A DNA stretch of 57,146 nt from Thermodesulfobacteriota bacterium (GTDB taxonomy: Bacteria; Desulfobacterota; Anaeroferrophillalia; Anaeroferrophillales; Tharpellaceae): positions 1 through 57,146 of the forward strand of contig JANTGZ010000005.1 in NCBI GenBank assembly GCA_024762675.1, in the 5' to 3' direction. How positions within the stretch are numbered: the first letter of the stretch is position 1; the number at the start of each line of letters is the position of its first letter. The position numbers were made by a program, and so were the translations under genes. Shown one piece after another: positions 34,763-46,047 of the stretch. The notes beneath the pieces were generated by a model that saw only the letters and a list, made by a program, of their open reading frames with translations, was not told the DNA's origin and made no database searches.

Positions 34763-36172
34763 ATGCCAGGAGTAAAAGTTCTTGTAGTCGATGACGAAGC
34801 CGTGATCCGGAAAGGGCTCTGCCGTGTTATGGAGGGCATGGGCTACCAGGCTGAATCATCTGAAAGCGGTTATGGGGCCATAGAAAAGCTCCAGAAAGCT
34901 CCATTTAGCATCGTTATCACAGATCTAAAAATGCCGGGAATGGATGGCATCGAGGTCTTAAAGGCCATCAAAATCCTGCAGCCGGATGTACCGGTTATCA
35001 TTATTACCGGGTACTCTACAGTGGATACCGCTGTGGAGGCCATGAAAAAAGGGGCTTTTGATTATATTTCCAAACCTTTTACACCTGAGCAGATTATTGA
35101 TATGGTCGAAAAGGCTCTGGAGCAGAGAACCATCCAGATGCAGCTTACCCATCCAGCCGTAGGATCGAACCGGAATGGTTTTGAGATTTTTGTCGGTGAA
35201 AGCGAAGCTATGCAGAGGGTCTATACAAGAATCAAGCAGGTCGCTCCCACCGACAGTACGGTCCTTATAACCGGTCAGAGCGGAACCGGAAAAGAGCTGG
35301 TTGCCAAGGCCATTCATAAAAACAGCATTCGTTGTAATAAGCCCTTTGTTGCAGTTGATTGCACTTCTCTTGTCGAGAATCTTCTCGAGAGTGAGCTCTT
35401 TGGCCATGTCAAGGGCTCTTTCACCGGGGCTGTACAGACCAAGATGGGCTTGTTTAAAGTTGCTGACGGAGGAACCCTTTTTCTGGATGAGATTTCCAAT
35501 ATCAGTCTGGCCACTCAGGGCAAACTGTTGCGGGTTCTCCAAGAGTTTAAAATAACCCCTATTGGGGGAACCAAACCTATTCCCATTGACATCCGTCTTA
35601 TTACCGCAACCAACAAAGATCTGAGTGACCTGGTTAAAGAGGGGCTTTTCCGGCAGGATCTCTTCTTCAGATTGAATATTATTCCAGTTAACCTGCCGCC
35701 CCTGGTTGATCGAGAAGGGGACCTGCCCTTTCTTATCGGTCATTTCCTGAAAAAATTCTCCGAGGAGATCGGCAAAGAGATTAATGGAGTGTCGCCGGCC
35801 GCAATGGCCATCCTGGACCGCCATCCTTTTACCGGAAATGTCAGGGAACTGGAAAATATTATTGAGAGAGCAGTTGTACTCACCCAAAACAAGCTTATTC
35901 AACCGGAGGACCTTGAGATTCAGTTCACCGCCGACGATCCTCCAGAAATTACTACTGAGCCTATTCCCCAAAGTGCAGAGAGCCTGAAGGAGGTCAAAAG
36001 ACAGGTCAGGGAAAAAGCGGTTGAGCCGGTTGAGCGCGCCTTTCTAATTCAGGCCCTTGAGCAGAATAGCTGGGTTGTCACCAGGGCCGCCAAGAGTGTT
36101 GGGATGTTGAGGCCCAATTTTCAGGCAATGTTGAAAAAACACGGTATTTCAGTGAGAGATCATTCAGAGTAG
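34763..36172 (+). CDS. Sigma-54-dependent response regulator of the heme-sensor system
   Basis: A 469-residue NtrC-family regulator. The receiver has D10/D11, phospho-acceptor D54 (VITDLKMPGMDG) and the KPF lysine near residue 104. The AAA+ domain has Walker A GQSGTGKE (171-178). The sigma-54 contact loop reads GSFTGA (218-223) instead of GAFTGA. A C-terminal Fis-type helix-turn-helix (VVTRAAKSVGMLRPNFQAML) would bind DNA. AAGGAG precedes the ATG. The sensor kinase starts 21 bp downstream. Two sigma-54-type promoters lie on the opposite strand nearby and are its likely targets (inference). Confidence 0.9.
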   Translation: MPGVKVLVVDDEAVIRKGLCRVMEGMGYQAESSESGYGAIEKLQKAPFSIVITDLKMPGMDGIEVLKAIKILQPDVPVIIITGYSTVDTAVEAMKKGAFDYISKPFTPEQIIDMVEKALEQRTIQMQLTHPAVGSNRNGFEIFVGESEAMQRVYTRIKQVAPTDSTVLITGQSGTGKELVAKAIHKNSIRCNKPFVAVDCTSLVENLLESELFGHVKGSFTGAVQTKMGLFKVADGGTLFLDEISNISLATQGKLLRVLQEFKITPIGGTKPIPIDIRLITATNKDLSDLVKEGLFRQDLFFRLNIIPVNLPPLVDREGDLPFLIGHFLKKFSEEIGKEINGVSPAAMAILDRHPFTGNVRELENIIERAVVLTQNKLIQPEDLEIQFTADDPPEITTEPIPQSAESLKEVKRQVREKAVEPVERAFLIQALEQNSWVVTRAAKSVGMLRPNFQAMLKKHGISVRDHSE

Positions 36173-36193: not shown

Positions 36194-37747
36194 ATGCGTC
36201 TGAAACTGATTGTTCAGATCTCGCTGATTACGGGAATTGTCCTCTCGTTTACCTCGGCCCTCTTTGGTTATTTCAATATCTCCAGCTTAAAGCAAGCCTT
36301 CCTCCAGAGCGCAGTATCTGACCTCGACCACCTGGGCGAAACCATCTTCAGATCCGTATTTCATCAGATGTTGGAAAATGACAGGAATGCGATTCAGGTT
36401 ACAATAGTGGAGGTGGGACAAGGAAAAGGGATCGAGCGTATCAGGATCCTCAATCGGGATGGGATGGTGGCCTTCTCCACCCGGAAGGGTGAAATCTGCA
36501 CCACTGTTGTCAAGCAACAGGCTCCGGCATGTATGGTCTGCCATAATGAAGAAATGTCTTCTGAGGATTCCTGCGCCTCTTTGCCGCGAAGCAGAATGCT
36601 TGTTAATAGTGACGGCAAAAAGGTTCTTGGTATGATTAGACCCATATATAATGAGCCGACCTGCTGGACGGGTGCCTGCCATGCCCACTCCAAGGATACG
36701 AAACTTCTGGGACTTCTGGAGATTACCATCTCCGCCGATCCCATGTTGTCGATGATCAGAAATTATCGCAACAATGCCGTGATTCAGATCTTTTTCCTGA
36801 TTCTCTCCATCTCGCTTTGTCTTACCCTGCTTACCAAGAGGTTGATTATTCAGCCGGTTCATACGCTGTTGGAACATACCCGGGCTGTTGGAAAGGGGAA
36901 TTGGCGCCTTATCAAATCAGTGCCGGGGGATGAATTAGGAGAACTCTCCGAGGCGTTCAATGACATGACCGGCAAGCTCAAAAAGAATCAGGATGAAATG
37001 GATGAGTGGGCGGCTACGCTGGAGACCCGGGTCGAGGAGCGCACTCGCGAAATAAAGGAGATGCAGGCAGTTCTGGTCCGCTCGGAAAAACTTGCTTCTC
37101 TCGGTGAACTCGTTGCGGGGATCGCCCACGAGCTCAATAATCCACTTACAGGGGTTATGATTCACGCTTCTCTCCTTGCGAGGGATCCACGTCTGGATGA
37201 TGGCCTGGTGGAGGATTGCCAAACTGTTATTGACGAGACCACGCGCTGCTCCAAGATTGTCAAAGAACTGCTTGACTTCGCCAGGGTCTCTGATCCGCAA
37301 AAGGTAATGCAGCCGGTCAGCAAAGTAATTGACAAAACAATAGCCCTGATCGAACACCATAGCGATTTCAAAGACACCGAGTTAATCAAGGAGTATGATC
37401 CTGATCTTCCGGAAACCTTGATGGACGCTTCTCAGATTGAGCAGGTTCTAATCAACATAATGATCAATGCAAGCCAGGCTATGCCTGAGGGGGGGGAGCT
37501 GTTTATAAAGACTGGGGTGAGTGAATCTGGGAACCACATCTATGTCCGGATTGAGGATACAGGTTGCGGCATTCCAAAAGAGAATATAGAAAAACTTTTC
37601 GATCCCTTTTTCAGCACCAAAGGACACAAAGGTACCGGCTTGGGCCTTTCGGTTTCTTACGGAATTATCCAGTCTCATGGTGGTGATATCGAAGTTGAGA
37701 GCACGCCGGGAACGGGCACAGCTTTCACCATTATTTTACCCATATAA
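36194..37747 (+). CDS. Membrane sensor histidine kinase with periplasmic heme-c motifs
   Basis: A 517-residue kinase. Helix 1 is about residues 7-27 and helix 2 about 196-213. The periplasmic domain between them contains two covalent heme-binding motifs: CMVCH (C113-C116-H117) and the longer CWTGACH (C157-C162-H163, CX4CH type known from cytochrome c3). HAMP (about 214-268), coiled coil, HisKA with H312 (AGIAHELNNPLTG) and HATPase boxes (INIMINASQAM, GTGLGLSVSYG) follow. It should sense redox state, a gas or electron-carrier status through the hemes and phosphorylate the upstream regulator. GAGGAGG lies before the ATG. Heme attachment is predicted from motifs only. Confidence 0.88.
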   Translation: MRLKLIVQISLITGIVLSFTSALFGYFNISSLKQAFLQSAVSDLDHLGETIFRSVFHQMLENDRNAIQVTIVEVGQGKGIERIRILNRDGMVAFSTRKGEICTTVVKQQAPACMVCHNEEMSSEDSCASLPRSRMLVNSDGKKVLGMIRPIYNEPTCWTGACHAHSKDTKLLGLLEITISADPMLSMIRNYRNNAVIQIFFLILSISLCLTLLTKRLIIQPVHTLLEHTRAVGKGNWRLIKSVPGDELGELSEAFNDMTGKLKKNQDEMDEWAATLETRVEERTREIKEMQAVLVRSEKLASLGELVAGIAHELNNPLTGVMIHASLLARDPRLDDGLVEDCQTVIDETTRCSKIVKELLDFARVSDPQKVMQPVSKVIDKTIALIEHHSDFKDTELIKEYDPDLPETLMDASQIEQVLINIMINASQAMPEGGELFIKTGVSESGNHIYVRIEDTGCGIPKENIEKLFDPFFSTKGHKGTGLGLSVSYGIIQSHGGDIEVESTPGTGTAFTIILPI

Positions 37748-37848: not shown

Positions 37849-37890
37849 AATGCAAAAAGGCCACCTATCTTATGGTGGCCTTTTTGCATT
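37849..37890. terminator. Bidirectional terminator between converging operons
   Basis: A perfect 17-bp stem: 37849-37865 (AATGCAAAAAGGCCACC) pairs with 37874-37890, loop TATCTTAT. Both strands end in a T-run, so it can end the kinase transcript and the opposing small-protein transcript. Confidence 0.93.
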
Positions 37891-37899
37891 GAAATTCGT

Positions 37900-38121
37900 T
37901 TAGGATTCGGTTGTTGCGGCTTTTTCTTTTGTGTGTGCCAATCCCTTGATGAACCCTACAACCAACATGAGAGCCGGAACCAGTTGGGCGACAACGACCA
38001 GAGCACAGACACCGACGAAGGCGGAGACGAGAATCCCGCTTTTATAAACTACTGTTTCAGCTGCAAATGCTGGATTGATAACTGCCAGAACCAAAAAGAT
38101 TGTTGTGATTGCCGTTTTCAT
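37900..38121 (-). CDS. Small exported membrane protein B1 (cassette copy 1)
   Basis: A 73-residue protein with a Sec-type signal (MKTAITTIFLVLAVINPAFAA, cleavage likely after AFA) and one hydrophobic helix (about residues 28-58) containing the motif ALVVVAQLVPAL. The tail is short and charged. It is a close paralogue of B2 at 44079-44321 and shares the AL-V-Q-VPA core with A1 and A2. GGAG precedes the ATG. It is last in copy 1 and has no recognised family. Its strict co-location with a receiver-like protein suggests a membrane signalling or channel role, but this is a guess. Confidence 0.85.
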   Translation of the reverse strand: MKTAITTIFLVLAVINPAFAAETVVYKSGILVSAFVGVCALVVVAQLVPALMLVVGFIKGLAHTKEKAATTES

Positions 38122-38176
38122 GATTAATTCTCCTTTTCTGTTTTCCCTACCTTTGGATTGTCAATTTATTAGAGTT

Positions 38177-38581
38177 TCAATTAGAAATATTTTTGGGCGC
38201 TCTTTTGTCTGTTGAATTATGAAAGGCGCATTGAACCACCTGTCTGATCTCCGTCCTGTCATCGCCATTTACTGGTTTTAAGGCATGATAGAAGATCCTC
38301 TCTTTACGAACTTTACGGATAAGATTGGGGGATTCAACATTCGAAATAAGGATAATTTTCAGGTTCTGGTTACATCTCTTTAAAAGGGGGATTATTTCCG
38401 TTGCCGATAAGCCGTCAAACTCGCTTCCCAACAAGATGACTGTGGCCTCTCTTTTTAAGACATTACGCAGAACAATGCCCATGGAATCCGCCTCGATAAC
38501 CCGGTATCCGCTCCCATTGAAAAACCCGACGATATGTTTGCGAGTCTCTTTATCCGTGTCAATTATCTGAAGAGTCTGCAT
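38177..38581 (-). CDS. Receiver-like protein without the phospho-acceptor Asp (copy 1)
   Basis: A 134-residue stand-alone receiver-fold protein. The acidic N-terminal positions are present (D8, D10) and the conserved Lys is K102 (HALKPVNGDD), but the phosphorylation site aligns to G52 in ILLGSEFDG instead of Asp. It cannot be phosphorylated in the usual way and has no output domain. The ATG at 38581 is preferred over the 13-codon-longer frame because residues from MQTLQ onward match copy 2. The paralogue at 44369-44782 has the same Gly. It lies between A1 and B1. Confidence 0.85.
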   Translation of the reverse strand: MQTLQIIDTDKETRKHIVGFFNGSGYRVIEADSMGIVLRNVLKREATVILLGSEFDGLSATEIIPLLKRCNQNLKIILISNVESPNLIRKVRKERIFYHALKPVNGDDRTEIRQVVQCAFHNSTDKRAPKNISN

Positions 38582-38636
38582 GATCAATCTCACTTTCCAG
38601 GAAATACCTAGGTAGCCCAATCTATCGGGAGTTGTT

Positions 38637-38873
38637 TTACTTTACATTACCAGAAGCTGTTTCACGGTTCTTTGCTTTCCCGAAAACACCCGCCATCATA
38701 GAACCAAACATTATCAAAGCTGGGACAAACTGTAAGGTAACGATAAGAGCCAAAAATCCAAGAAAAATCCATCCAGCGAGGCCGAACTCAGTACCCTCGG
38801 CGCCGGTCGCGGCAAAAGCCGAATTTGCATACATGATGGTCATCAGTGTGACGATACGTAATGTGTTCTTCAT
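38637..38873 (-). CDS. Small exported membrane protein A1 (cassette copy 1)
   Basis: A 78-residue protein with a signal peptide (MKNTLRIVTLMTIMYANSAFA) and one helix (about residues 33-62) with ALIVTLQFVPALIMFGSMM. GGAGGTG upstream fits the ATG at 38873 rather than the GTG at 38882. By eye it is about two-thirds identical to A2 (44825-45073) and shares its core with B1/B2. It is the first gene of copy 1, after a sigma-54-type promoter at 38961-38976. Confidence 0.85.
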   Translation of the reverse strand: MKNTLRIVTLMTIMYANSAFAATGAEGTEFGLAGWIFLGFLALIVTLQFVPALIMFGSMMAGVFGKAKNRETASGNVK

Positions 38874-38897
38874 TTTTCTCACCTCCGCTTAGCTTCA

Positions 38898-38915
38898 AAA
38901 GACTTCAATGTCTTT
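38898..38915 (-). other. Leader hairpin of cassette copy 1
   Basis: AAAGAC (38898-38903) pairs with GTCTTT (38910-38915) in the 5' leader of A1, just before the ribosome-binding site. Copy 2 has a hairpin at the same place with a different stem sequence. Confidence 0.45.
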
Positions 38916-38960
38916 CGCGTTGTATGTTTTGCATTATATTCTTTATACAATCTACATAAC

Positions 38961-38976
38961 TGCATGGGGCGTGCCA
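38961..38976 (-). promoter_or_regulatory. Sigma-54-type promoter of cassette copy 1
   Basis: On the minus strand the site reads TGGCACGCCCCATGCA: GG and GC separated by exactly 10 bases and a -24 box TGGCACG identical to consensus. The -12 box is ATGCA rather than TTGCA. It lies about 90 bp before the A1 start. Confidence 0.7.
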
Positions 38977-39149
38977 GTTGTAAAATAAATCACATTAGTT
39001 TTATAAGGTCTTGAATTTACACGTTTTGAGGTTTTTAGGTGGGGGAAGATGATGCACTGTATTACGGCCGGATGTATATGATTTTTATACAATAAATTAG
39101 CTGATAGGGATCAAATAGAGATATCGAAAATCATAACCCTGTAAAAATT

Positions 39150-39195
39150 AAAGGATTATCCGATATCATTTGGGAGTATACGAAAAAAGTGCTCC
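39150..39195. promoter_or_regulatory. 46-nt conserved block upstream of cassette copy 1 (candidate enhancer)
   Basis: Runs from AAAGGATTATC through TTTGGGAGTATAC to GTGCTCC. It matches 41 of 46 bases with 45351-45396. It lies 174 bp upstream of the -24 box, a normal distance for a sigma-54 enhancer. It contains an imperfect dyad, GGAGTA...TGCTCC. Confidence 0.55.
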
Positions 39196-39368
39196 TTATT
39201 TCCGGATTTATCTTTCAAGATATGGGAAGCTGCCGGAGATGAGCTCTTTCGTACGAAGGTAGATGGAATGGAAGGGAAAATTGTTTTTTTTGGGGGGGTG
39301 AGTTTGCCGATGGTAACAAATGTTACCTTATCTATTTGTTCAGGAGTAGGACTTTGATGTTGCCACCA

Positions 39369-39893
39369 TCATTTTTCCAAGTATGCGAGGACCTTCTCTT
39401 CTTCTTTTATGGCCTCGCTGCAGCCGGACCAGACCCGGTAGTTCTCAAGGCCGAGAATCGTCAGGCCGGCGATGAACACCGGCCAGAAATTATCCCGAAG
39501 CGCGTCGGTATAATAATAGAATAGATAAAATGCCGAAAGATAGCCGATATGTGACCAACCTCGAAAGCGGCGAGGCCCGGTGTTCATATGGCCAAATATG
39601 AGAATGAGGGCTGAAAAAGCGTAGACGATCAGGGCAATGCTGATGAGGGAGGGTGAGGGTGATGCACCTAGAAAGATTCTGACTTCCTCGGATATCGGGG
39701 GGAGAAACCGGAAATTGGCCGCGGCCCCTAGGCTGACCAGGAAAAAGAGGGCCATCCACCATTGACCATAGCGTATCTGTTTTTTAAGGTAGCGGATTCG
39801 AATATGAATTTCCTGGCGCCGTGAGTCCGGGCTCAGTACACCCTCATCAGGGGATAAGTGATGATTTTGTTTCTGCTTCCGCCGTAAAAACAC
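39369..39893 (-). CDS. Four-helix membrane protein of unknown function
   Basis: A 174-residue protein starting at GTG 39893. Four hydrophobic helices (about residues 45-62, 80-101, 112-128 and 133-146) lie between a basic N terminus and an acidic C-terminal tail. No family is recognised. It follows the kinase-less heme sensor by 90 bp on the same strand, so it may be the last gene of the respiratory operon and could be a quinone-site or anchor subunit. Confidence 0.7.
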   Translation of the reverse strand: MFLRRKQKQNHHLSPDEGVLSPDSRRQEIHIRIRYLKKQIRYGQWWMALFFLVSLGAAANFRFLPPISEEVRIFLGASPSPSLISIALIVYAFSALILIFGHMNTGPRRFRGWSHIGYLSAFYLFYYYTDALRDNFWPVFIAGLTILGLENYRVWSGCSEAIKEEEKVLAYLEK

Positions 39894-39983
39894 TCAAAAA
39901 CCCCCATTTGCCTAACAACTTTGAAAGGTTGCTGAGCCCCCGGCCTTAAGAACTAAATCAAATTATACACCCTTTCCTTGTGT

Positions 39984-40811
39984 CTAGTTATCAGCTTTCT
40001 TACTTTTTTTCAATGCCATTTCAGCAAGATGTTTTTCTCTAGCCATATCAAAATAGATCTCGCCAAGGATCTCAACCTCATTGACTCCTTTGGGATAATC
40101 ATTATCCAGACTTCCCCCGGAAACCTTTTTTACATAGTCCATCAACTGGCTGATGGGTATCAGCAGGTTTCGTCTGAGGAGGGCGCTGACGCCGCCTACC
40201 GATAATATAAGAATCATAATGCAGAAGACTATCATTTTCCAGCGCAGAGTCAGCAGCCTACTGTCCATAGAATCAGTTGACAGGCCGATGTCCAGGGTGC
40301 CGAGAACTTTCTGTTGGGAGGGGTGAAAGTGGCATTCACCCGCAGAGCATTGTGAGTCATTATATATTGGAGAGGTGATGGCCAACACATTGCGGTTTTG
40401 GGCATTGACAAAGCGTCTCGCCAGTTCCATGGAGCCCAAACGTAATGCAGGCTCTGAACCGCTGTGACACTCAATGCATCCGGCTGTGGATTTGTCTACA
40501 ACCTGATTTAACTCCTCAGGCTTCGAGGAGAACATGATAACCCCCTCTTTATTGAAGATCCGGAGATGTTCGACTCCCTCCTGGTCTCCGATACTGTTAA
40601 TAATATGGTAAAGATTTTTCCGGTCATCCGTCATCATGGCGTATCGGGTTGAAGTGACAACAGTAGCAGCGAGGTTGGTCTCCTGCTGTACCGCAGTTTC
40701 CAGAAGATCCTCTTTAATAGAGGAACACAGGATTAAGCTGCAGATGATGACAAAACCAGTCAGGGAAAGTGCTACCGGGACGATTGCTTTGGAAGCTAAG
40801 TTGTTGAACAT
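39984..40811 (-). CDS. Kinase-less heme-c sensor-like membrane protein
   Basis: A 275-residue paralogue of the kinase sensor at 36194-37747. Helix 1 is about residues 8-30 and helix 2 about 193-212. Between them lie CIECH (C112-C115-H116) and CSAGECH (C155-C160-H161, CX4CH), with TSPIYND around the second motif as in the kinase. A HAMP-like segment follows to about residue 262, then the protein ends: there is no HisKA, ATPase, GGDEF or methyl-accepting domain. AGGAGG precedes the ATG. It might modulate the kinase, act as an electron carrier, or be a decoy receptor. Heme binding is inferred from motifs. Confidence 0.83.
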   Translation of the reverse strand: MFNNLASKAIVPVALSLTGFVIICSLILCSSIKEDLLETAVQQETNLAATVVTSTRYAMMTDDRKNLYHIINSIGDQEGVEHLRIFNKEGVIMFSSKPEELNQVVDKSTAGCIECHSGSEPALRLGSMELARRFVNAQNRNVLAITSPIYNDSQCSAGECHFHPSQQKVLGTLDIGLSTDSMDSRLLTLRWKMIVFCIMILILSVGGVSALLRRNLLIPISQLMDYVKKVSGGSLDNDYPKGVNEVEILGEIYFDMAREKHLAEMALKKSKKADN

Positions 40812-40921
40812 GTCCGATCCTCCTTTCTGGTCTTCCGGTTTCCTCGTTGGGGTATTTTAAAAATACTCTTGATGGTGTCTCACCAAAGCTGTACTTTCAG
40901 CGGAGGTGAAAAAATTACTGG

Positions 40922-40956
40922 AACCGTCATACCGACAGAAAGCCGGTATGGCGGTT
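40922..40956 (-). terminator. Hairpin between the NrfD-like gene and the heme-sensor paralogue
   Basis: AACCGTCATACC (40922-40933) pairs with GGTATGGCGGTT (40945-40956), one G-T wobble. On the minus strand a T-run follows after about 8 bases. It may attenuate transcription into the downstream heme-sensor gene. Confidence 0.6.
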
Positions 40957-40965
40957 TAGAGAAGT

Positions 40966-42309
40966 TTACGAGGACATCTCACTTACTAACTGTTGCTTGG
41001 CTTGAGCTGGGCTAGGGTCAGCCAGGTCGGGCACGGGTACGGAGACCAGCTCAGCTGCCGGTTCAGTCTTCCACGAATACAGTATTGGCAGTCGATAGAG
41101 AATAAAACGATAGACTGTTACGAACAGGAAAAATATAGTTACGCTTATGATCGTTTCCAATAGAGGGGGCCACTCCTGGTAAAGGTTCCAGTTGAAAGTG
41201 ATCAAGACTGTGTTAAGTCGGTTCATCAATAATCCGCCAATCGTTAGAAACGCTGTAAAGCGGATCAGGCCAACGCTTTTTCTTCTAATACCGAAAGAGA
41301 AAAGGGTGACAGGCAGGATTACTCCTAGAAAGATCTCTGCCATATACAATTTCCCCCATCCGGTGGCCAGGTAGGACCATTGATTGTCATGGATAAGCCC
41401 GATAAGCTTAATCACAAAATAGGTTACCAGAGCCATGCTTGCACCTTTGGCCAGACCGATAGTGATGGTGTCGAGATTATCCAAAAACTCATCACCGCAA
41501 CGCCAGGCCATGGTCTTTTTAACAATGGTACTGACCGCAATAACCATGCAAAGGCCGGCAAAAACCGCAGAACAGAGGAAGAAGATCCACATGAACTCCG
41601 CCGAGTACCAGAGCGGGTGTACTTTCCCCGGTGCATAAGTAAGGAGGGTTCCTAAGGCTCCCTGATGGAGCGTCGAAAGGATGATTCCCGCCACAGTTAA
41701 GCCGATGGTTCCTTTATGGATATAGTTCTTCGCGGTGGGCCAGTTGATCCATTCAAAAAATGCTTCGGAGACTTCCAGTACCTGTACTGTCAGGTAGGTT
41801 GCAACATGCCAGCCCACCAAAAAGAGAACCGCCGCCGTACCCCAGGCGACAACCATGGGGTAGTAGAGCCGCCAAGGGCAACCAAGGTCTACCAGAAGAA
41901 AAACAACCGCAAAGAAATATCCGAGCAAGCCGTTGAGCAGCGCCAGGTTTAGTATGGGCTTGAATCCTTTGTGTCCGAAAAGTTCCACCGTCGTGCCGAG
42001 CAGAAATCCCGAGGCCGAGAGCGGCACCATACAGAAAAGACCAAAGCCTAAGAAAAGGCCCCATGGATAATCGAAACCGCCGTGCATAACCGAGCCCAGT
42101 CCATTGATATACCTGTAGACAATAACCGGCAGGCCGACGGCAAAGATCATAAACAGGAACCAATTGAAAGGATTACGCCGAAGTTGCTGGAAATACTCTT
42201 TAGGAGATAATCCCAGCAGCAGTTTCTGCATTATACTCCACTGATGGCCATCAGTCGGATCGTTTAGAGAGTCAACCGGCTTAAAGCCTTCTTTTATAAA
42301 ATGTTTCAT
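40966..42309 (-). CDS. HybB/NrfD-family membrane subunit (quinone-interacting)
   Basis: A 447-residue protein with about ten hydrophobic helices, the NrfD/PsrC/HybB fold. HybB-like features include GLFLGFGLFCMVPLSASGF in the first half and TLHQGALGTL in the middle. These subunits exchange electrons with menaquinone without heme. Its ATG overlaps the stop of the Fe-S gene by 4 bases (ATGA), so the two are translationally coupled. With the Fe-S protein and cytochrome it should form a quinone:cytochrome oxidoreductase like the Qrc or Cbc complexes of Desulfobacterota. The direction of electron flow is not known. Confidence 0.88.
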   Translation of the reverse strand: MKHFIKEGFKPVDSLNDPTDGHQWSIMQKLLLGLSPKEYFQQLRRNPFNWFLFMIFAVGLPVIVYRYINGLGSVMHGGFDYPWGLFLGFGLFCMVPLSASGFLLGTTVELFGHKGFKPILNLALLNGLLGYFFAVVFLLVDLGCPWRLYYPMVVAWGTAAVLFLVGWHVATYLTVQVLEVSEAFFEWINWPTAKNYIHKGTIGLTVAGIILSTLHQGALGTLLTYAPGKVHPLWYSAEFMWIFFLCSAVFAGLCMVIAVSTIVKKTMAWRCGDEFLDNLDTITIGLAKGASMALVTYFVIKLIGLIHDNQWSYLATGWGKLYMAEIFLGVILPVTLFSFGIRRKSVGLIRFTAFLTIGGLLMNRLNTVLITFNWNLYQEWPPLLETIISVTIFFLFVTVYRFILYRLPILYSWKTEPAAELVSVPVPDLADPSPAQAKQQLVSEMSS

Positions 42310-43259
42310 TCTCCTTGAACCTCCACTCTATTTTTAGACTCCTTATCCTTTTTCTCTCCCTTGCCCCCTTTTGCTAAGAGGTGAAATCCCAGAAACATGG
42401 CCGGCCAGATGCCTAAGACCATCGGTACGATGCCCAGGAAACTCTTGGTGTTGTCCAAGATCGGATGGTGCTGAAGGGTAGTGTTGAAATCTACTTGATC
42501 GAAGGGGACACTGGATAGATACATCCAGGAGGTACCGCCGACTTCGGTTTCCCCGTAGACATGATCCACATACTTTTTCGGGTTCGCTTTAATCCGTTCA
42601 TGGGCGGTTTTTACAAGGGTCTTCCGGTGGCCGAAAGTTAGAGCATCTTGTGGGCAGGCTTCGACACAGGCCGGCGGTTTCCCATTTTTGAGACGGCTAT
42701 CGTAGCAGAAGTTACATTTTATTATCTGAGGGTGTAAAGCACTGTCATAGGTGTAGGCCGGCATACTGAAGGGGCAGGCAACCATACACATTCTACAGCC
42801 AACGCAGACATCCGCGTTGTAGATGACCGCACCCTCTTTGGTTTTCGTGTAAGCGTTAACAAAGCATGAGGTCAGACAGGCCGGTTCACTGCAATGAAAG
42901 CACTGGAGTTTCCGGTAGACCGGTGCACCTTGATCTTTTGTCTCATAGCGGTTGACCACCGTGTAGGCTTTTTCAGTGGTTCTGCGTTTCTGTTTACCTT
43001 CGTGAAATACCTGGTCGAAAACTGAGAAGTCGTCAAAAGGAAGGGCCGGTTCCGGAAGGCCATGTTCTTTATTGCACGCCGCTTCGCAGGTACGACAGCC
43101 GATGCAGCGGGTAAGATCCACCAAGACCCCCATACTTTCAGGGTAACCTTCGAACTCCTTCATAGCAAAAGCTTTTTTAGTGGAGGACATCGCCGCGGCG
43201 GCGCTGCCGCCAGCGACGACGGTCGATTTGAGAAATTTTCTCCGGCTTATACCACTCAT
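42306..43259 (-). CDS. Tat-exported ferredoxin-like protein with four 4Fe-4S clusters (HybA/DsrO type)
   Basis: A 317-residue periplasmic Fe-S subunit. The twin-arginine signal is SRRKFLKS at the N terminus followed by a hydrophobic stretch to AFA. Cys groups for four clusters are visible: CIGCRTCEAAC, CFHCSEPACLTSC, CVGCRMCMVACP and CNFCYDSRLKNGKPPACVEACP. A C-terminal helix (about residues 283-300, GIVPMVLGIWPAMFLGFHLL) anchors it, as in HybA. It passes electrons between the HybB-like subunit and the cytochrome. No hydrogenase or molybdopterin catalytic subunit is encoded nearby, so it is not part of a Hyb hydrogenase here. Confidence 0.9.
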   Translation of the reverse strand: MSGISRRKFLKSTVVAGGSAAAAMSSTKKAFAMKEFEGYPESMGVLVDLTRCIGCRTCEAACNKEHGLPEPALPFDDFSVFDQVFHEGKQKRRTTEKAYTVVNRYETKDQGAPVYRKLQCFHCSEPACLTSCFVNAYTKTKEGAVIYNADVCVGCRMCMVACPFSMPAYTYDSALHPQIIKCNFCYDSRLKNGKPPACVEACPQDALTFGHRKTLVKTAHERIKANPKKYVDHVYGETEVGGTSWMYLSSVPFDQVDFNTTLQHHPILDNTKSFLGIVPMVLGIWPAMFLGFHLLAKGGKGEKKDKESKNRVEVQGE

Positions 43260-43310
43260 AATGATCTATCCCCCTTTCCTTGTTGAAAAATAATCTCTTT
43301 CTCGAAAAAA

Positions 43311-43838
43311 CTATTCATGACTGCCTCCAGTTCCACCGCCTGTGGGTGCATATTTGCCGGAACGATAAAAACGATCACCGGCGTCAGTTCTTTCATGACA
43401 GCTTGCACACTCTGAAGGTGCTTCCATTTCAATATGGCAGGTGAAACATCTCAGGTGATAGGCACCCTTGAGTCCTGTTATATCGACATGGTAGCGATTC
43501 GGATCAGTTTCCATCTTCGTTAGATACTCAACCGTGAATGGATCTTCGACATGACAATCTCTGCAGGCGACAGAGGTTGTCCCTTTACTATTGGAATGGC
43601 ATCTGGCGCACTGTTTATCGGCAACCCCATTGCCAAACACATGATGGTGGCAGACAGAACAGTCCTCCTCGACGCCGACATGTAGTTCGTGGTCAAAATC
43701 AACTCCATTGTAAAGGTGGGACAGGGAGTCTATGCGCACGGAATCTGGAGGCTCGCCACCAGCGCCAAAAGCCGGTGCGACGAGAAAACACAGTGCCACG
43801 ATCGTCCCTTTCAGGGCCCATCTTTTTCTACTTTTCAT
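43311..43838 (-). CDS. Periplasmic pentaheme cytochrome c
   Basis: A 175-residue protein starting at ATG 43838, chosen because GAGGAGG lies just upstream and a signal peptide (WALKGTIVALCFLVAPAFG) follows directly. Five CXXCH motifs are visible: C60, C77, C92, C131 and C144 as first cysteines, each with His at +4. The extra histidines around HHH (64-66) and H50/H53 suggest bis-His ligation as in class III cytochromes. It is the electron-transfer partner of the Fe-S and HybB-like subunits. Confidence 0.9.
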   Translation of the reverse strand: MKSRKRWALKGTIVALCFLVAPAFGAGGEPPDSVRIDSLSHLYNGVDFDHELHVGVEEDCSVCHHHVFGNGVADKQCARCHSNSKGTTSVACRDCHVEDPFTVEYLTKMETDPNRYHVDITGLKGAYHLRCFTCHIEMEAPSECASCHERTDAGDRFYRSGKYAPTGGGTGGSHE

Positions 43839-43869
43839 TCGTTCGTTCCTCCTCGAATGTTCAGAAATA

Positions 43870-44058
43870 CTATTTGTTTCCGTTATCAGCATCTTTATCG
43901 TACATGATAACTTTCCTATAAAAAAATGGAAATGCGATCAAAAACCCGACGCAGACGAGATATTCGACAGCCTTGATATAATCGTAGTATTCGACCAAGG
44001 TGCCAATCGCAACGGGTTCGCCGATAGTGTTGAAAAAATTAGTTAGTTGTTCGCCCAT
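43870..44058 (-). CDS. 62-residue single-helix membrane protein
   Basis: One hydrophobic helix (about residues 31-48, VEYLVCVGFLIAFPFFY) between an N-terminal polar part and a basic/acidic tail (RKVIMYDKDADNGNK). AGGAG lies 7 bases before the ATG at 44058. It sits between B2 and the cytochrome gene in the same orientation and may be a small subunit of the quinone:cytochrome complex. No family is recognised. Confidence 0.75.
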   Translation of the reverse strand: MGEQLTNFFNTIGEPVAIGTLVEYYDYIKAVEYLVCVGFLIAFPFFYRKVIMYDKDADNGNK

Positions 44059-44078
44059 TTAAAGATCTCCTTTTACAG

Positions 44079-44321
44079 TTAGTTTCCATTCGTTGAGGAT
44101 TCGACCACCGGAACCTCCTTTTTTTGTCCCATGCCGACTGATGCCTTGATGAACCCAAGCACCAGCATAAGAGCGGGAACCAGCTGAGCCACAACAATCA
44201 ATGCACAGATGCCGACAAAGACGCTGACCAGAACCCCGCTCTTGTAAACCACCGTTTTCGCGGCAAATGCCGGATTGATAACCGCCAGAACCAAAAAGAG
44301 TGTTGAGATCGCCGTTTTCAT
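44079..44321 (-). CDS. Small exported membrane protein B2 (cassette copy 2)
   Basis: An 80-residue protein with the signal MKTAISTLFLVLAVINPAFAA and one helix with ALIVVAQLVPALMLVLGFIK. The first 59 residues are almost the same as in B1 (37900-38121); the tails diverge. The ATG at 44321 has GGAG upstream and matches the start of B1. It is followed 20 bp later by the 62-residue membrane protein, so copy 2 runs into the respiratory operon. Confidence 0.85.
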   Translation of the reverse strand: MKTAISTLFLVLAVINPAFAAKTVVYKSGVLVSVFVGICALIVVAQLVPALMLVLGFIKASVGMGQKKEVPVVESSTNGN

Positions 44322-44368
44322 GATTAATTCTCCTTTTACTTTTTGCCCTACCGCTGGAAATATTATCG

Positions 44369-44782
44369 TTAGAGTTCCTTGGTAGAACCTTTTTGGGACA
44401 GCCTTCTGTCCGTTGAGTTGTGAAAAGCACATTCCACTACCTGTCTTAGCTCCTCTCTGTCATCGCCGTTTACAGGCTTTAAGGCATGATAGAAGATTCC
44501 CTCTTTACGAAATCTTCGGATAAGCGGGAGGGACTCCTCGTTTGATATGAGAATAATGGTTAAATTTCGGTTGCACGTTTTTAACAGGGGGATGATTTCC
44601 ATTGCCGATAACCCGTCGAACTCACTTCCCAAGAGGACGACATCAGCCTCTTTTTTCAGGACGTTTCGCAGAACAACATCCACGGAATTAGCCTCTATGA
44701 CTTTGTACTCGCTCCCACTGAAAAATCCGCCGATCCGCCTGCTGGTTTCATCATCCTTGTCAGCTATAAGAAGAAGCTGCAT
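44369..44782 (-). CDS. Receiver-like protein without the phospho-acceptor Asp (copy 2)
   Basis: A 137-residue paralogue of 38177-38581. The phospho-acceptor position is again Gly (VLLGSEFDG), while the acidic N-terminal pair (ADKDD) and the Lys in HALKPVNGDD are kept. The start at 44782 is preferred because GGGGG lies 6 bases upstream and the sequence then matches copy 1. There is no DNA-binding or enzymatic output domain. The retention of the same Asp-to-Gly change in both copies implies a conserved phosphorylation-independent role. Confidence 0.85.
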   Translation of the reverse strand: MQLLLIADKDDETSRRIGGFFSGSEYKVIEANSVDVVLRNVLKKEADVVLLGSEFDGLSAMEIIPLLKTCNRNLTIILISNEESLPLIRRFRKEGIFYHALKPVNGDDREELRQVVECAFHNSTDRRLSQKGSTKEL

Positions 44783-44824
44783 ATTCATCCCCCTTCTAAG
44801 GAAATACTGCGGTAGCCCATTCAA

Positions 44825-45073
44825 TCAGGAGTTGTTGGCCTTTCCATTGTTCATAACTTCTTCATGGTTTTTCGCTTTGCCGAAGATAGCCGCCATCATA
44901 GACCCAAACATCATTACGGCCGGGAGAAGTTGGAAGGCAACTATAAGGGCCAGAAATCCGACAAAAATCCATCCTATAAGACCGAATCCACCACCCTCGG
45001 CACCGCTCGCGGCAAAAGCTGAATTTGCGTACAGGATGGCACTCACTGTAACGATACGAAATATGTTCTTCAT
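44825..45073 (-). CDS. Small exported membrane protein A2 (cassette copy 2)
   Basis: An 82-residue protein with a signal peptide (MKNIFRIVTVSAILYANSAFA) and one helix with ALIVAFQLLPAVMMFGSMM. It is the paralogue of A1. The same GGAGGTG-to-ATG spacing supports the ATG at 45073. It is the first gene downstream of the sigma-54-type promoter at 45159-45174, and therefore the probable first gene of a long operon to the NrfD-like subunit. Confidence 0.85.
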   Translation of the reverse strand: MKNIFRIVTVSAILYANSAFAASGAEGGGFGLIGWIFVGFLALIVAFQLLPAVMMFGSMMAAIFGKAKNHEEVMNNGKANNS

Positions 45074-45093
45074 TTTTCTCACCTCCGCCTAGC

Positions 45094-45119
45094 TACAGGA
45101 GTCATCAACGCCTCCTGTA
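45094..45119 (-). other. Leader hairpin of cassette copy 2
   Basis: TACAGGAG (45094-45101) pairs with CTCCTGTA (45112-45119) around a 10-base loop. It occupies the same position as the copy 1 hairpin but the stem sequence is different and still pairs. Confidence 0.5.
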
Positions 45120-45158
45120 TTATATAAACTATAGAATTCTTTATACAATCTACAGTAT

Positions 45159-45174
45159 TGCATAGAGCGTTCCA
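45159..45174 (-). promoter_or_regulatory. Sigma-54-type promoter of cassette copy 2
   Basis: On the minus strand: TGGAACGCTCTATGCA, GG-N10-GC spacing kept. The -24 box has one change (TGGAAC for TGGCAC) and the -12 box ATGCA is the same as in copy 1. Confidence 0.65.
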
Positions 45175-45350
45175 TCTGTTAAATAAATCACATAGGTTTG
45201 TTTAAGGTGTTGAATTTACAGCTTTATATGGTGTGAATTGGGGGTGCAGGTGAGTTCTTTTATTGCATCAGGATGTATAAAAGTTTTGTACATTGTATAC
45301 GTTGACATGGATCGTTTGGGACTGTTGGATAATCTAAATCACTGAAAAAT

Positions 45351-45396
45351 AAAGGATTATCTGATATTGTTTGGGAGTATACAAAAAAAGTGCCCC
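45351..45396. promoter_or_regulatory. 46-nt conserved block upstream of cassette copy 2 (candidate enhancer)
   Basis: Same block as 39150-39195 with 5 substitutions, 177 bp upstream of the -24 box. Candidate binding site for the local NtrC-type regulator. Confidence 0.55.
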
Positions 45397-45542
45397 ATAT
45401 TTTATTCCACCTCCATATTCGTATCATCCTTTCTTTCTACTTTTTATAAGATCGTACAAGATGGTTAATTTTACGTTTAAAAGACTTAAGGAGTATTTTT
45501 TATCGGAAAACCTTACAATGTTCTTTTTTTAGCTGAGGTTCG

Positions 45543-45995: not shown

Positions 45996-46047
45996 ACGAA
46001 TGCAAGTTTTTATGTTGCTATTCAGCAACATAAAAACTTGCATTCGT
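45996..46047. terminator. 24-bp perfect hairpin after the PilZ gene
   Basis: Bases 45996-46019 pair perfectly with 46024-46047 around an ATTC loop. The arm begins ACGAATGCAAG. No T-run follows, but a run of T precedes the left arm, so it could act as a terminator on the minus strand or as an RNA-processing structure. Confidence 0.75.

Follow-up and report, generated by a model that had tools for sequence, protein, structure and literature searches.

Two copies of an A-R-B unit beside a respiratory operon

The window, a stretch of 57,146 nucleotides (contig JANTGZ010000005.1) from a sediment bacterium related to Candidatus Tharpella, holds two copies of a unit in which a long control region precedes three small genes, here called A, R and B. 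An earlier note on this DNA had proposed that the cassette is duplicated together with its control region and in the same order, and alignment bears this out. The two 1.3-kb units, at 37.9-39.2 and 44.1-45.4 kb, match in blastn from an upstream block to B over 1275 nt with 74.7% identity (E = 0.0), and the offset between them is near-constant along the alignment (6198-6201 nt). Both lie on the minus strand and run in register through block, inverted repeat, sigma-54 promoter, leader hairpin, A, R and B. The encoded proteins also match significantly, with identities of 53/78 (68%) for A, 95/134 (71%) for R and 55/73 (75%) for B. The value for A is the similarity of about two-thirds that had been claimed; B had been called nearly identical in 59 residues, a slightly strong wording for what is a high similarity, with 51 matches in 59 and nearly all changes conservative. 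The features of the two units are:

37849..37890, no strand: inverted repeat after B1, terminator-like (17-nt perfect arms; -30.7 kcal/mol, z -8.6)
37900..38121, minus: B1, 73 aa, signal peptide and single membrane helix; 75% identical to B2, same family as A
38177..38581, minus: R1, receiver-like, without phosphoacceptor Asp (Asp to Gly); Pfam Response_reg 32.8 bits (cut-off 30.2)
38637..38873, minus: A1, 78 aa, signal peptide and single membrane helix; 68% identical to A2
38896..38917, minus: leader hairpin, copy 1, from covariation over 21 copies
38962..38976, minus: sigma-54 promoter, copy 1, TGGCACGCCCCATGC, from promoter alignment and sequence
39074..39090, minus: inverted-repeat element GTATAAAAATCATATAC, presumed enhancer site, 114 nt upstream of the -24 element
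39144..39201, minus: conserved block, copy 1, 88% identical to the copy 2 block
44079..44321, minus: B2, from translation and identity to B1
44369..44782, minus: R2, receiver-like, without phosphoacceptor Asp; Pfam Response_reg 35.5 bits (cut-off 30.2)
44825..45073, minus: A2, from translation and identity to A1
45096..45117, minus: leader hairpin, copy 2, from covariation and folding
45160..45174, minus: sigma-54 promoter, copy 2, TGGAACGCTCTATGC, from promoter alignment and sequence
45275..45291, minus: inverted-repeat element GTACAAAACTTTTATAC, copy 2, 117 nt upstream of the -24 element
45345..45402, minus: conserved block, copy 2, from its match to the copy 1 block

The two copies end as had been described. 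Copy 1 stops at the strong inverted repeat, which lies between the convergent 3' ends of B1 and a kinase gene and is common to both, and B2 is followed after 20 nt by a 62-residue gene that leads into the respiratory (cytochrome) operon.

A and B, tiny proteins of the inner membrane, are paralogous to one another, with about 32% identity (E about 1e-3), each consisting of a signal peptide and then one membrane helix with shared residues that include Gln-x2-Pro-Ala. Neither has a significant match in Pfam, NCBIfam, PHROG or the PDB. A structure model of B built from an alignment shows the signal helix and one long helix (predicted local distance difference test, pLDDT, 84-89 in the core), and is too simple to be suited to a fold search. 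R matches the profile of a receiver domain and lacks the phosphoacceptor Asp, a residue lost in 47 of 48 R homologues (Gly in 40, Ser in 6, Ala in 1) and kept in one. R is a receiver to which the usual route of phosphorylation is closed. The fold model of R alone is weak, with alternating strands and helices and a pLDDT of only 60.

Further copies, age and selection

Only three sites in the genome contain the core of the block, and an A gene lies downstream of each. The third site belongs to a unit on another contig, C17 (locus L008; A at 12193-11954, B at 11879-11655), which has a complete control region with block and promoter, lacks R and lies in a locus without respiratory genes. Relatives were checked for one or more copies and contain up to five units each. 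Some congeners and sister-family members (G005, G006, G016, G017) have a single A-R-B cassette heading the equivalent operon and none at the place of copy 1, and in two others of the genus, G004 and G009, an additional A-B pair without R occupies the copy 1 position between the 174-aa gene and the kinase gene. The highest number among the relatives, five scattered units, is found in G011. All copies keep the control region as well as the proteins.

As a separate observation, the B proteins of two G011 units (L042 and L043) are identical (synonymous divergence, dS, 0.12) and their A genes strongly diverged (dS 0.82), for which local gene conversion between the two units is the likely explanation.

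A codon-based tree places copy 1 inside a nine-member clade of extra copies (support 100/99) and copy 2 outside this clade, among the operon-head copies; the C17 copy pairs with a copy from G008 (95/81). When copies 1 and 2 were forced to be sisters, the cost was 97 log units and the arrangement was rejected by the approximately unbiased (AU) test (p-AU 3.3e-4). Nonsynonymous changes between the two copies are fewer than synonymous ones (Fisher p of 5e-4 for A, 5e-15 for R and 1e-8 for B), which indicates purifying selection on all three genes. The ratios of nonsynonymous to synonymous divergence (dN/dS) are 0.33, 0.16 and 0.18 for A, R and B, and dS between the copies is 0.6-1.2, compared with 0.5 for the iron-sulfur gene of the operon when the window genome is set against G004 or G009; these are rough estimates, the genes being short and dS near saturation for R. 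Given the tree position, a dS above the congener level and the low dN/dS, both copies are old and have been kept by selection. The earlier suggestion, a duplication followed by selection to keep both, holds, with the amendment that this was no local event yielding two copies: the units belong to an older, genus-wide set of paralogues.

With identical gene order and control region only 6.2 kb apart, the second copy might also be read as a recent local duplication kept by chance, a functionless artefact of dosage, but we consider this highly improbable: 25% of sites differ, the dS and dN/dS values just given speak for age and constraint, the sister pairing is rejected, the insertion place is kept in two congeners, and no disabling changes were seen in copy 1. 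A recent duplication within the genome and an assembly artefact are likewise ruled out by the divergence, the presence in relatives and the AU test. An origin from a mobile element or phage was also rejected, the cassette having no match in phage and plasmid collections and R none in viral contigs.

The shared control region and its presumed regulator

For the control region we compared 22 copies from 11 Tharpellales genomes, which align over their full length. The sigma-54 site TGG-N9-TGC (GG-N10-GC spacing) is present at 22/22 copies, GGG replacing TGG in one, and the start codon follows 78-111 nt past it. A T-tract and the block lie 212-219 nt upstream of the -24 element, and 20 of the 22 copies have, some 115 nt ahead of the promoter, the inverted repeat GTAT-N9-ATAC. 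With Geobacterales copies included, 62 of the 72 promoters tested have this repeat, at a distance of 92-127 nt upstream from the -24 element; dinucleotide shuffles gave an expectation of 2.5 and a maximum of 7 in 200 rounds. Sigma-54-like sites likewise precede 49 of the 70 copies outside Tharpellales (0.75 expected from mononucleotide shuffles). The distances from repeat to promoter bunch near 92, 101, 115 and 125 nt, which may reflect helical phasing of the two elements.

The leader hairpin, another element named in the earlier note, is borne out by compensatory changes: 4 of its 8 base pairs, located before the ribosome site, have changed on both sides among 21 copies, the number of paired cells lies above all 500 shuffles, and the stem of copy 2 has GGAG/CTCC versus AAAG/CTTT. 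This covariation, together with a block that lies far upstream and is strongly conserved between the copies, would suit a regulatory RNA or a nucleoid-protein site to which the sigma-54 match is secondary. Such an arrangement is nevertheless very improbable, as the sigma-54 site and the repeat occur phylum-wide at near-fixed spacing and the block does not. The block was not found in the Geobacterales upstream regions and is confined to Tharpellales among those compared, which rules it out as a general site.

A scan of eight genomes, including the window genome, for the repeat combined with a sigma-54 site returned mostly A/B genes. In G303, a genome of the Geobacterales type, it also marked a CbcB-CbcD segment that is separate from the A-R-B-hepta-heme segment, which hints, independently, at a single regulator for the two. 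Further matches lie at formate dehydrogenase genes of G303 (L196) and G319 (L190), and fdnG of Geobacter sulfurreducens appears in an RpoN regulon listing (PMC2725144). A GTAT-N9-ATAC element about 115 nt upstream of TGG-N9-TGC is the presumed regulator site, and predicts a genome-wide regulon that can be tested in Geobacter.

Candidates for the regulator and its sensor are encoded next to copy 1:

34763..36172, plus: sigma-54 enhancer-binding protein (EBP) with receiver domain; GSFTGA motif; orthologue in 41/41 A/B genomes
36194..37747, plus: membrane histidine kinase with heme-binding motifs in its sensor domain, from sequence and conserved locus

The AAA+ loop of the EBP, ELFGHVKGSFTGA in the translation, is a GSFTGA variant of GAFTGA. 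In a phylum survey of 394 genomes at least 90% complete, in which matches of E up to 1e-160 were counted as EBP orthologues, the A/B family is present in 41 genomes from more than a dozen families, all of them among the 45 that have the orthologue (hypergeometric 2e-51, kinship not corrected for). The kinase is related to a CbcD-like protein of the respiratory operon (31% identity over 260 aa, E 9e-34), which is a kinase-less twin of its sensor half; both have CxxCH and Cx4CH motifs. The operon therefore encodes, without the kinase part, a second version of the domain by which it is presumably controlled, and this suggests feedback, or competition for the signal of the kinase.

Operon cores behind the cassette and the possible role of A and B

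Between the two units lie the genes of the respiratory operon:

43870..44058, minus: 62-aa membrane protein, first operon gene after copy 2, kept at the same place in most relatives
43311..43838, minus: penta-heme cytochrome c, five CxxCH; Pfam Cytochrom_CIII 26.3 bits (cut-off 22.9)
42306..43259, minus: HmcB-like iron-sulfur protein; NCBIfam HmcB 395.1 bits, below the cut-off of 420
40966..42309, minus: HmcC/NrfD-like membrane protein; NCBIfam HmcC 334.1 bits, below the cut-off of 550
39984..40811, minus: CbcD-like protein with HAMP and heme motifs, similar to the kinase; homologues at the same place in Geobacterales loci
39369..39893, minus: 174-aa membrane protein in the CbcE position; homologues after CbcD-like genes in Geobacterales loci

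Across the survey, A-R-B or A-B-R heads quinol-cytochrome operons with three types of core. The first, penta-heme/HmcB/NrfD, is that of Tharpellales and some others; the second, found in Geobacterales, has the Cbc5 layout of 7-heme cytochrome, cytochrome b and 12-heme cytochrome with CbcD and CbcE; the third, in family f9, combines a 9- or 11-heme cytochrome with cytochrome b. Loci of f9 (L211-L216, L219) begin with the EBP, followed by A-B-R, the 9- or 11-heme cytochrome, cytochrome b and further genes.

The Cbc5 system (cbcEDCBA; CbcBA) of G. sulfurreducens shares with the window operon the CbcD-like gene and the gene in the CbcE place, in this order at the operon end, and Geobacterales operons of the Cbc5 type have the A-R-B cassette at their head with the orthologous EBP and kinase close by. 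The window operon, however, has no hepta-heme CbcA, CbcB-type cytochrome b or dodeca-heme CbcC, and the penta-heme cytochrome, HmcB-like and HmcC/NrfD-like proteins stand in their place. The Hmc complex (HmcABC) of sulfate reducers is similar in that HmcB-like and HmcC/NrfD-like proteins accompany a multi-heme cytochrome. It differs in that the window proteins score under the curated cut-offs (395.1/420 and 334.1/550), the cytochrome has 5 hemes rather than the 16 of HmcA (35.3 of 400 bits), and CbcD/CbcE-like genes follow. Available published descriptions give Cbc5 five subunits and are silent on A and B. An activator of CbcBA named BccR was reportedly described by Joshi and colleagues in 2021; our literature search returned no match for it.

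CbcBA of G. sulfurreducens operates at the lowest potentials and is switched on in the absence of easier acceptors (PMC12307469). Complexes of this type enable metal reducers to respire near the energetic limit (PMC12307469, citing Joshi et al. 2021), and relatives are implicated in bacteria that live in syntrophy with methane-oxidising archaea; for cbcBA, a transfer from Desulfuromonadales to Seep-SRB2 is assumed (PMC10553843). CbcD has been described as a HAMP protein that bears 2 heme sites (PMC7894505). Just upstream of cbcA are the hypothetical gene GSU0597 and the 'response receiver' GSU0596 (PMC10599522), candidates for A and R by their position. In published tables both change together with GSU3409, GSU3410, GSU2750 and GSU3489 (PMC10599522). 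The small membrane proteins GSU3410 and GSU3489 are up with cbcBA under cobalt stress (PMC7726332), and GSU3410 gives its name to a ten-member family present in 6/6 Geobacter genomes compared (PMC2825233). GSU2750, a hypothetical gene of the RpoN regulon, precedes the fumarate/succinate exchanger gene dcuB (GSU2750-2751, PMC2725144). This pattern fits a multi-copy A/B regulon, of which GSU0595-0597, GSU3409/3410, GSU2750 and GSU3489 would be candidate members.

We favour, with a probability of about 0.6, the reading that the units are dosage-type paralogues in a heme-sensing sigma-54 respiratory regulon, with A and B as accessory or assembly subunits. Its regulatory part is an inference well supported by several independent tests; the accessory role in a membrane complex is our best guess. 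Most likely the kinase (36194-37747), through its heme-c motifs, would sense the redox state of the periplasm and activate the EBP (34763-36172), which would bind GTAT-N9-ATAC upstream of each promoter and fire sigma-54 transcription. Copy 2 would then drive A-R-B and the operon, that is, the 62-aa protein, penta-heme cytochrome, HmcB-like, HmcC/NrfD-like, CbcD-like and CbcE-like proteins, and copy 1 and the C17 copy would be stand-alone units that add A/B under the same signal and make no extra complex. A and B would be exported by their signal peptides, have one long membrane helix with a conserved Gln-x2-Pro and most likely serve a membrane-bound oxidoreductase, with R probably acting as an unphosphorylated adaptor.

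Several observations weigh against this reading. No A/B homologue of known function or structure was found in Pfam, NCBIfam or the PDB, which is why the subunit role is a guess, and the stand-alone copies mostly lack neighbouring cytochrome genes. Binding by the EBP, and regulation by it, rest on inference for this organism, and the block does not extend beyond Tharpellales. Four genomes have the EBP orthologue and no A/B at the thresholds used, and the genomes have dozens of EBP candidates, to another of which the repeat could belong. Finally, a search of the window genome with the strict repeat-plus-promoter pattern recovers no more than one or two copies, because the repeat is degenerate in the remaining ones.

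The phage-shock (Psp) system combines sigma-54, a dedicated activator and small inner-membrane proteins. By similar logic, A and B might be a device against envelope or proton-motive-force stress under the same regulator, the extra copies raising the peptide dose. Stand-alone copies in cytochrome-free loci such as that of C17 are in line with this, as are the retention of A/B with the EBP regardless of the enzyme core and the cobalt response of GSU3410 and GSU3489, should these two candidates belong to the family. We nevertheless regard a stress device as rather unlikely, since no resemblance to PspA, PspB or PspC was found by Pfam or NCBIfam and the A/B pair directly precedes cytochrome genes in the EBP-linked operons examined. 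The cassette has no sequence relation to Psp that we could find, and its activator, unlike that of Psp, comes with a receiver domain and a kinase partner. A and B might also be membrane-active toxic peptides like the type I toxins, with which they share small size, hydrophobicity and multiple copies, and the repeated stand-alone loci would suit this. Such a function for A/B is very doubtful, given that their signal peptides are likely cleavable, that they have their own sigma-54 activator and belong to respiratory operons, and that selection on them is purifying.

A wider form of the favoured reading, which we put forward only tentatively, would make A and B a family of mini membrane proteins, so far undescribed, and the constant output of the heme-sensing sigma-54 switch: universal adaptor subunits for low-potential electron transfer from quinol to multiheme cytochromes, with an extra dose from the scattered copies. 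The redox enzyme would be swapped between lineages (Hmc-like, CbcA/B, 9/11-heme with cytochrome b) while A, B, the dead receiver and the regulator stay. Among metal reducers such as Geobacter, different respiratory operons begin with this undescribed cassette and its type of switch, and if A/B and the dead receiver always accompany these operons as the invariant target of the regulator, the accepted inventory of the complexes is incomplete.

Outside the units, a perfect 24-bp inverted repeat with a 4-nt loop was noted at 45996-46047, between a 141-aa gene and a large gene that, named by eye, is recC-like.

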